A stretch of 44,592 bases of DNA. Source: Clostridiales bacterium. Lineage in GTDB: Bacteria > Bacillota > Clostridia > Lachnospirales > Lachnospiraceae. The position numbers and the translations under genes are program-made. The notes below the pieces were generated by a model. It was not told where the DNA came from, did not search any database, and saw nothing but the letters and a program-made list of their open reading frames with translations. Shown in pieces: positions 1 through 10,669 of the stretch. Position 1 is the stretch's first letter; each line of letters opens with the position of its first letter. The DNA lies in the NCBI GenBank assembly GCA_012839295.1, contig DUNO01000059.1, positions 1 to 44,592 on the forward strand. Reading direction: 5' to 3'.

Positions 1-90
1 CACTTGGCAATCATGGGATGTTAAAGGCAAGCCCAGGTGGATATAGCTCCACTCAGCTTCACCTCACAGCCTAAATCTCACACCTATACC
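1..90 (+). repeat. Structured repeat element, copy 1 (5' part outside window)
   Basis: This is the right-hand part of an element also found at 6163-6283 (minus) and 10370-10502 (plus). Visible are the end of the loop (1-5), the inner 3' arm (6-20, identical to that of copy 2), the conserved internal-loop strand TTAAAGGCAAGCC (21-33), a copy-specific outer 3' arm (about 34-63), and the tail TTCACCTCACAGCC shared almost exactly with copy 3. The 5' half must lie upstream of the window. The copy lies just past the stop of the permease gene and in the opposite orientation to it. The function is unknown to me. Confidence 0.8.
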
Positions 91-5382: not shown

Positions 5383-6132
5383 ATGAAATATACTGCTATC
5401 GTTGCAGAGGATGAGGAATTATTACTTCATGGACTGGTGAAAAGAATTGAAGGCCTGAATGTTAACTTTAAGGTGATCGGGGAAGCCCAGACCGGCCTAC
5501 AGGCTTATAAGCTGGTAAAGGAGCTTTCGCCGGACCTGGTTATCACAGATATCCGCATGCCTGAGATGGACGGCATTACCCTCCTTACAAAAATCCGGGA
5601 GAAATATCCGTCCATGGATTTTATCATCACCAGCGGCTATTCTGATTTTGAATATGCAAAGAGTGCAATCCACCTCCAGGTCAGCGAATATTTGTTAAAG
5701 CCCATTGACCCCGATGAATTAAGGGAGGCTCTTTTGAAGCTTAAGACTAAATATGAGCTGGAGCAAAGCTCCTTTAACGATATCTTTAATTCTTCTGCGG
5801 CAAACAGCACTCCCAGCCAGATAGCCTCCCTTTTGAAGGATTACCTGATCCAGAATTATAACCAGGATGTCAACCTTAACCTGATTGCAAATAACATGAA
5901 TTACAGTCCCGGGTATCTGACGAAGATTTTTTATACCTACTATGACTGCAGTCCTTCTAAATATCTGATTTCCCTCCGGATCCAGAGGGCGCAGTATCTC
6001 TTATCCCATCATCCTGATTTGACCATTCGTCAGATCGGGGAGAGCATCGGGTATAGTGATCAGGGGTATTTTAGCCGGATATTTAAGAAGCAGACGGGGT
6101 TAAGTCCGTTGGAGTATAAGGATAGAGTGTGA
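5383..6132 (+). CDS. Response regulator with AraC-type DNA-binding domain, YesN type
   Basis: 249 aa. The N-terminal receiver has the acidic patch AEDEE, phospho-acceptor Asp56 in ITDIRMPEMDG, and the conserved Lys in LLKP. The C-terminal AraC/XylS double helix-turn-helix (about residues 150-249) ends in the family signature IGYSDQGYFSRIFKKQTG then SPLEYK. An upstream in-frame codon at 5302 is possible, but the ATG at 5383 has the better site AAAGGAGAGACAGGAG and removes an unrelated 27-residue extension. It lies 112 nt after the kinase, with which it forms a two-component pair. Probable target: the divergent importer promoter and perhaps the GH31 promoter. Confidence 0.93.
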   Translation: MKYTAIVAEDEELLLHGLVKRIEGLNVNFKVIGEAQTGLQAYKLVKELSPDLVITDIRMPEMDGITLLTKIREKYPSMDFIITSGYSDFEYAKSAIHLQVSEYLLKPIDPDELREALLKLKTKYELEQSSFNDIFNSSAANSTPSQIASLLKDYLIQNYNQDVNLNLIANNMNYSPGYLTKIFYTYYDCSPSKYLISLRIQRAQYLLSHHPDLTIRQIGESIGYSDQGYFSRIFKKQTGLSPLEYKDRV

Positions 6133-6162
6133 GGATTTAGGTTGTGGGGATTTAGGTTGTGA

Positions 6163-6283
6163 AGTGAAGAAGAGAGGGGATATATTCAGATGGCTTGCCT
6201 TTAACATCCCATGATTGCCAAGTGCAGGCAATCACGGGAAGCCCGGTCTGCGCCATCTGAACATATCCCCTCTCTTCTTCACT
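6163..6283 (-). repeat. Structured repeat element, copy 2 (complete)
   Basis: The outer stem is 31 bp: 6163-6193 pairs with 6253-6283 with one mismatch, which becomes a G-U wobble if the minus strand is the RNA. The inner stem is 6205-6219 with 6227-6241, around a 7-nt loop (TGCACTT on the minus strand). Conserved single-stranded strands flank the inner stem. On the minus strand the core reads TGGCGCAGACCGGGC, then the stem, then TTAAAGGCAAGCC, nearly identical to copy 3. The outer stem sequence is unrelated to those of the other copies. Beyond it, CACAACCTAAATCC occurs twice, resembling the tail of copy 1. Confidence 0.85.
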
Positions 6284-6289
6284 GCTTTA

Positions 6290-7599: not shown

Positions 7600-7689
7600 A
7601 TAGCTTCCTCCTTAATTCTTCCTATCCTTCTTAAATCAGCCTGTCAACGTCTTAACCCGCCCCTCTGACACCCGAATCTTATTTCTTCT

Positions 7690-10118: not shown

Positions 10119-10369
10119 GGTTCCTTCAACAATTCTTCCAAAGTACCCCGGCATTGCCATTAAGTTTCTTCACTATACTAATTACCACTTTTTTTGGCTG
10201 CCATATTAAGCTTTGTATCAATTTGGCTTAACTACAGCAGCCTTATATTTTACATAACACTTTTAACAGCTCAGGTGATAAAATTTGCGGTATACCTTTT
10301 AACTTTTTCTCCCCCTGTTTATTTACATTTTTATGATTCGAACGACAAAAGTCTTTCTATAACTATCGC

Positions 10370-10502
10370 GGTGAATGCGAGTGCATATAGATGCATATGG
10401 TGCAGACCGGGCATCGCATGATTGCCTGCACTTGGTAATCATGCGATGTTAAAGGCAAGCCAGATGCATCTATATGCACTCGTATTTACCTCACAGCCTA
10501 CA
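10370..10502 (+). repeat. Structured repeat element, copy 3 (complete)
   Basis: The outer stem runs 27 bp without interruption: 10370-10396 with 10464-10490, with two G-U pairs if the plus strand is the RNA. The inner stem is 10412-10426 with 10434-10448 (15 bp, one G-U) around loop TGCACTT. The strands between the stems (10397-10411 and 10449-10463) are conserved with copy 2. The tail TTTACCTCACAGCCTA (10485-10500) matches copy 1. In the inner stem, CGC/GCG here replaces CCC/GGG of copy 2, a compensatory change. Confidence 0.87.
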
Positions 10503-10669
10503 CCTTACCCATTTGACGATCAAATCATTTTTATATCTCTATTTAGCTTATGTATATAAGTATAATGCTTATTTTAAGATAATCAATGCTAATATTCCCG
10601 AACGTAGGATAGTACATTAAAATCTTAAAATTGTATATAATACAATCGTTGTGTTTAAGATAATATTTA
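10503..10669. other. AT-rich intergenic stretch with short palindrome
   Basis: No gene seen. ATTGTAT-ATA-ATACAAT at 10630-10646 is a perfect inverted repeat about 24 nt past the stop of the minus-strand ABC permease gene. It has no U tract and cannot be assigned as a terminator with confidence. Confidence 0.4.

Follow-up and report, generated by a model that had tools for sequence, protein, structure and literature searches.

Integron attC sites carry conserved recombination boxes at the base of a hairpin, and IS200/IS605-type and REP elements, which are moved as single-stranded DNA, insert to our knowledge without target duplication. Structured MITEs are also already known: the available parts of two reports describe such elements and their effects on the cleavage and stability of messages (PMC10969869, PMC3049150). 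The repeat analysed here offers more than 100 natural variants in which both stems are paired and two loop strands are almost fixed, whereas the transposon ends are not.

We analysed the whole of a 44,592-nucleotide contig (the window), for which the original prediction had described a hairpin with a covarying stem in three copies. The reading we prefer, with confidence slightly better than even, is a MITE of the Herbinix group, about 180–200 bp long, that carries a folded module, putatively an RNA with a candidate binding loop. The MITE part of this reading is well supported. Terminal repeats of type GATTYGAGYGTCAAAAGTC enclose a long palindromic stem, which leads to a conserved asymmetric internal loop (5′ GGCGCAGACCGG, 3′ RAAGGCAAGYCC) and on to a variable hairpin. 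A DDE-type transposase supplied in trans, and either lost or unrecognised, would have mobilized the element. The module itself would act as an RNA of the GCAGACC strand, in which the arms form a rigid stem and the internal loop provides the binding or active site for a partner.

A short element with terminal repeats and many copies

The hairpin at 10370-10502 is the interior of a larger element, whose terminal inverted repeats are degenerate and whose target duplication is 8 bp long (Table 1). The original prediction was right about the hairpin but missed this enclosing transposon-like unit, with its terminal inverted repeats and target duplications. A covariance-model match places the hairpin of copy 3 at 10365-10502 on the plus strand, and the other two copies also lie where they had been reported, one of them partial at the contig start and the other at 6151-6288 on the minus strand. 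The remaining 34 kb had been described as free of copies, which agrees with a model search of both strands that gave only two complete copies among the matches listed.

Table 1 Coordinates of the element and its copies in the window
Feature	Position	Strand	Basis or remark
Copy 3, complete element, 192 bp	10335-10526	+	Terminal repeats and flanking duplication
Copy 3, left target-site duplication ATTTTTAT	10327-10334	.	Comparison of ends and duplication
Copy 3, right target-site duplication ATTTTTAT	10527-10534	.	Comparison of ends and duplication
Copy 3, left terminal inverted repeat GATTCGAACGACAAAAGTC	10335-10353	+	
Copy 3, right terminal inverted repeat	10508-10526	-	Degenerate
Copy 3, outer stem 5′ arm	10370-10396	+	Fold and covariation
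Copy 3, outer stem 3′ arm	10464-10490	+	Fold and covariation
Copy 3, conserved loop 5′ strand GGTGCAGACCGGGC	10399-10412	+	Final bases within inner stem
Copy 3, conserved loop 3′ strand GTTAAAGGCAAGCC	10448-10461	+	
Copy 3, inner hairpin, 17 bp, 7-nt loop	10410-10450	+	Fold
Copy 2, hairpin part	6151-6288	-	Terminal repeats unrecognisable
Copy 2, conserved loop 5′ strand GGCGCAGACCGGGC	6241-6254	-	
Copy 2, conserved loop 3′ strand GTTAAAGGCAAGCC	6192-6205	-	
Copy 1, right half only	1-90	+	Contig start falls inside hairpin loop
Copy 1, conserved 3′ loop strand	20-33	+	

Some copies carry a tandemly repeated unit, CTCACARCCTAAAYC, next to the right arm (window 6105-6165; L042; L033), and in copy 2 a similar motif is also found to the left. 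A solitary terminal-repeat-like sequence, GATTCGGGTGTCAGAGGGG, lies between two genes at 7660-7678 on the minus strand of the window and is perhaps a remnant.

Several features are those of a MITE. The element has terminal inverted repeats; target-site duplications are present, in a minority of copies only; and at 192 bp it is too short for an internal transposase gene while occurring in at least 64 places. The only listed open reading frame of the window that overlaps copy 3 encodes 75 amino acids and starts outside the element. Duplications of at least 7 bp flank 4 of 56 own-genome copies of the main type (0.2 expected), and duplications of at least 6 bp were found elsewhere in 2 of 39 and 5 of 28 copies (0.3 expected each), which differs from the duplication-free insertion of the IS200/IS605-type or REP kind. 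In relatives, the hairpin is flanked by good, near-perfect terminal repeats (GATTCGAGYGTCAAAAGTC and variants), whereas those of the own genome are degenerate, and some of the copies in relatives show target duplications of 6–8 bp.

The three copies reported for the window understate the repeat, which is genome-wide. The genome to which the window belongs (6.36 Mb, 82 contigs) gave at least 47 matches in a DNA search (40 of 116 candidates scored) and at least 132 matches on either strand with a covariance model built from 45 copies (150 of 2182 candidates scored). Tallied from the latter, and with one strand counted, the genome holds at least 64 near-full-length places and at least about 19 partial copies at or adjoining contig ends. 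Position 1 of the window and the ends of about 18 other own-genome contigs fall inside the hairpin. With so many contigs of the draft starting or stopping there, the hairpin breaks short-read assembly, and copies are undercounted.

Some relatives carry the repeat too. Genus-wide, a DNA search matched 4 of 34 genomes, the own genome counted in, with 33 matches in G029, four in G026 and one in G030. Scanning named genomes for a sequence pattern yielded 66 stretches, of which 59 were kept as relatives: 36, 11 and 5 in the three Herbinix MAGs bin.8, bin.7 and STD2_240, and 7 in the Bacillota MAG CTSoil_066. The other seven (L114, L132, L133, L157, L161, L165, L172) were judged chance matches and dropped. 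The genus would be Herbinix, judging by sequences that same-genus loci share with Herbinix records. In a survey of 397 genomes, with 8 candidates scored per genome, the model matched at least two (the own genome and G203); a pattern survey matched the own genome alone and missed G203. A single pattern match among viral contigs resembles GC-rich coding sequence and was taken for chance.

Alone, with at most two mismatches, the terminal repeat matched in 24 of 34 genus genomes (353 times in G024, 145 in G007 and 58 in G005), many low counts being at the control level of 0 to 3. Elements consisting of ends only, with the core absent, also occur (for example L189, L190, L194, L198, L202); in L198, L202 and L055 the whole hairpin is gone and the two ends remain. 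Terminal repeats stand in a row in L185 (1-289) and L205, as if elements had inserted into one another.

Searches for PF01609, PF00872 and PF01610 in 5 to 7 genomes revealed no autonomous element with the same ends. PF01609 had no match over the cut-off in 5 genomes, whereas PF00872 was present in 4 of 7 and PF01610 in 2 of 7. Of the 14 PF00872 or PF01610 loci (12 without G0xx fragments), the 9 that were checked had no surrounding terminal-repeat pair, and three of these had single weak end matches only. A long terminal-repeat pair (L289) was considered as an autonomous element and rejected; it encloses host-type genes and no recognised transposase.

The same type of end is also found around other cores. 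Elements of 270-310 bp in G024, G004 and G005 contain an unrelated structured core (core B). They share with the repeat studied here the terminal-repeat type, the target duplications, a long structured palindrome and a one-sided orientation (for example L269-L273 and the G024 copies), and differ in their core sequence and in their larger size. Core B is strongly conserved (GAAGTCGTTGGTACTTAG ... GTACTTCATCCAAGC) in L208 (4515-4755, minus strand), L269-L273 and L289-L318. In G005 and G007, elements of about 217-350 bp have a GACCGGC / AAGGCAA-like loop inside a larger, branched core (L274, L275, L276, L277, L279, L281), and the 64-nt core may descend from these fuller, branched forms. A relaxed Rfam search of ten such relatives gave no convincing match, one match having an E value of 4.4.

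One end type with at least two unrelated structured cores suggests a route by which new non-coding RNAs could spread. It is a doubtful but more far-reaching proposal that the core represents a new class of mobile-element RNA, used in trans by a protein such as a transposase, nuclease or replication factor. The 64-nt core would then be a trimmed version of the branched cores of 255–350 bp in sister species, core B would be another RNA on the same ends, and the lineage would carry several functional RNAs kept by chromosomes.

Covariation of the stems and the better-folding strand

Both complete hairpins in the window fold far better than dinucleotide shuffles of their sequence, with z scores of -10.3 for copy 3 and -12.9 for copy 2, and in neither case were any of 200 shuffles as good. 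The outer arms of the two copies are largely different in sequence and still paired, and the swap of C-G for G-C in the inner stem, on which the original prediction had relied, is present in the sequence. Pairing statistics in an alignment of 45 distinct copies (three of 48 were left out, two cut or odd at the left end and one divergent) confirmed the covarying stem. What had been claimed for the inner stem stands, but the outer stem of about 27 bp had been understated, as it covaries more than the inner one.

In this alignment 98.4% of cells hold a standard pair, compared with 25–42% when partners were slid along as a control, and both sides have changed in 26 of 50 pairs. Doubly changed cells numbered 192 against a shuffled mean of 47.1, and none of 500 shuffles reached the observed value on any of five covariation measures. 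This alignment also supplied the structure being tested, and the shuffles ignore the relatedness of the copies. The shuffles exclude chance as the source of the pairing. Among 124 copies with scorable arms (10 of 134 candidates were dropped for poor arm scores, as chance matches or as nested), pairing was 97.9% when an arm was matched with its own partner, 90.8% when the partner was taken from the nearest copy of different sequence and 60.9% for a randomly chosen copy. At all 22 counted positions of the outer stem, two or more Watson-Crick types were seen, each in at least three copies.

The strand chosen in the original prediction is backed by an excess of G-U pairs and by fold energy. In reconstructed trees, single changes off Watson-Crick pairing in the outer stem, read on the GCAGACC strand, gave 90 G-U, 29 A-C and 24 other states. 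This strand is the better RNA fold in 122 of 124 copies, with a mean advantage of 10.9 kcal/mol, and the better-folded one in 117 of 124 when the inner hairpin is taken alone. A backwards-reading control, in which the figure was 121 of 124 and so hardly differed from that of the test, is uninformative because G-U pairs survive reversal. Singleton pair states, counted once per position, comprised 14 G-U and 16 A-C, which speaks against reading the strand as RNA. On these sequence comparisons, RNA is favoured over single-stranded DNA as the form of the folded module.

The arms might also stay complementary without selection and without an RNA role, in a DNA-level palindrome where template switching or hairpin repair at replication transfers each mutation from the arm in which it arose to the opposite one. 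According to the available part of one report, RNA hairpins can arise and be maintained through template switching (PMC8794818). The reconstructed trees contain 475 double Watson-Crick changes, of which 342 are of the transversion type, against 24 single transversion mismatches; so high a share of transversions suits templated correction of the arms, which is a live rival for the arm pairing. As an explanation of the element we consider it rather unlikely: it leaves unexplained both the near-invariant loop strands and the excess of G-U over A-C. Furthermore, the double changes show no clustering within the arm (75 adjacent pairs versus 73 expected, and 115 versus 113), and tandem G-A mismatches beside the loop persist in a second core subtype; both observations argue that correction does not account for everything. 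The fold as such probably has a function, as the MITE reading with a functional module would have it, and the family provides a natural test between folds kept by selection on the molecule and folds kept by copying between arms.

Loop conservation, orientation and neighbouring genes

Conservation is concentrated in the internal loop. When 56 main-type copies of the own genome are compared in pairs, mean identity is 0.98 and 0.997 in the inner internal-loop strands, which had been called conserved from the window copies. It is 0.86 for the inner hairpin, 0.73 and 0.71 for the two arms of the outer stem, 0.55 at the left and 0.34 at the right element end, and about 0.3 in the flanks. Both loop halves were exact in 56 of 60 own-genome copies, a count that 60 of the 64 near-full-length places entered, after an extraction that allowed at most one mismatch per searched loop motif. 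Four MAGs contain the loop as well, and a diverged copy in a genome from a different genus shows GCGAAGACCGG and GGGCGAGTCC at this place. As the MAG copies were found by an exact loop pattern, the conservation of the loop is argued from the own genome.

The loop appears to have been kept after insertion, since it hardly varies even though, in most own-genome copies, no target duplication is detectable and the right end is near-random. The caveats are that degenerate ends may have been a feature of the active ancestor already, that the end finder may miss duplications and that the extraction tolerated one mismatch per loop motif. Copy 3, which combines a perfect duplication with mismatched ends, shows that degenerate ends are no proof of age. 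The internal loop is probably a binding site, and as a defined feature it offers a handle for finding the partner.

The copies are mostly intergenic: 97 have two assignable neighbours, 14 more lie in predicted open reading frames and 2 at edges. Relative to these neighbours, the folded strand is antisense to both in 54 of the 97 copies, sense to both in 13, and between divergent genes in 17 and convergent genes in 13. This antisense excess does not favour expression from neighbouring genes.

The bias extends well beyond the adjacent genes. In 20-kb windows around 43 own-genome copies, the opposite strand carries 66–77% of genes in each 2-kb bin up to a distance of 10 kb, and the majority of far genes is on the opposite strand for 33 of the 43; bins beyond 10 kb contain few genes and have no such bias (0 to 0.54). 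The folded strand has a negative GC skew around 34 of 45 copies in the own genome, 25 of 31 in bin.8, and 7 of 10 in bin.7, 5 of 7 in CTSoil_066 and 1 of 1 in STD2_240, the last three each non-significant alone. Core-B elements of G024 have the same one-sided orientation (17 of 20). The bias most simply follows replication direction, as it does not decay over 10 kb, and being common to core B it points to the insertion process, not the core; insertion at replication forks could be its origin. Orientation set by the neighbouring gene was set aside because there is no decay within 10 kb, although replication and transcription are not fully separable, and orientation set by the core is weakened by the equal one-sidedness of core B.

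An orientation that tracks replication would also suit a hairpin recognised as single-stranded DNA, in which the GCAGACC strand is bound by a transposition or replication protein, in the manner of IS200/IS605 ends, REP or attC. The G-U excess would fit too, as G-T is the best tolerated mismatch in DNA. However, terminal repeats together with target duplications indicate DDE transposition of double-stranded DNA, the lagging-template strand would be the complement of the better-folding one, and elements with the same ends and no core exist, so that the core is dispensable for mobility. We regard single-stranded DNA recognition as quite improbable.

The intergenic location would be expected of a third alternative, an mRNA hairpin like ERIC, Correia or REP that lies beside genes and alters message decay or termination; the available parts of two reports describe message effects of such elements (PMC10969869, PMC3049150). 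Among own-genome copies with a minus-strand right neighbour (L231-L268), the stop codon lies -30 to +50 nt from the right end in 27 of 29, counting open reading frames of at least 100 aa and approximate ends set at fixed offsets. The left end is near the stop of a plus-strand left neighbour in 1 of 10. However, the transcribed strand would mostly be the complement of the folded one, which folds less well because A-C mismatches take the place of its G-U pairs, and we think an mRNA role unlikely. An RNA module read from the GCAGACC strand and carried by a MITE remains our preferred reading.

Comparison with described repeats

The original prediction knew of no family with this sequence, and the repeat reaches the threshold of no Rfam family. 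There were no matches in the window at the gathering threshold, and in a relaxed search of 901 bases around copy 3 the best was RF00125, on the opposite strand, with 30.8 bits against a threshold of 80. The original prediction was to be rejected on finding an Rfam match, or copies across the genome that lack covariation, and the searches produced neither. A match to a known MITE, which was sought through the literature only, was likewise not found. We found no published description of the repeat in the literature covered, which includes a minority of subscription journals and preprints.

Correia (NEMIS) and ERIC elements resemble it in being short, dispersed, structured and largely intergenic, and the available parts of the reports attribute message effects to them (PMC10969869, PMC3049150). 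They occur in other hosts, and their descriptions, with which the repeat was compared as far as available, contain no report of a conserved two-strand loop between fully covarying stems. Pneumococcal BOX and RUP are, according to the available part of one report, also MITE-like and tightly folded, with mutually paired ends and many copies (PMC3049150). BOX, unlike the repeat, is modular and tied by its ends to ISSpn2, whereas our searches found no transposase for the repeat. Finally, replication-oriented insertion sequences differ in having known transposases that bind the sliding clamp, and share with the repeat an orientation that tracks replication direction, as described in the available part of the report (PMC5371812).
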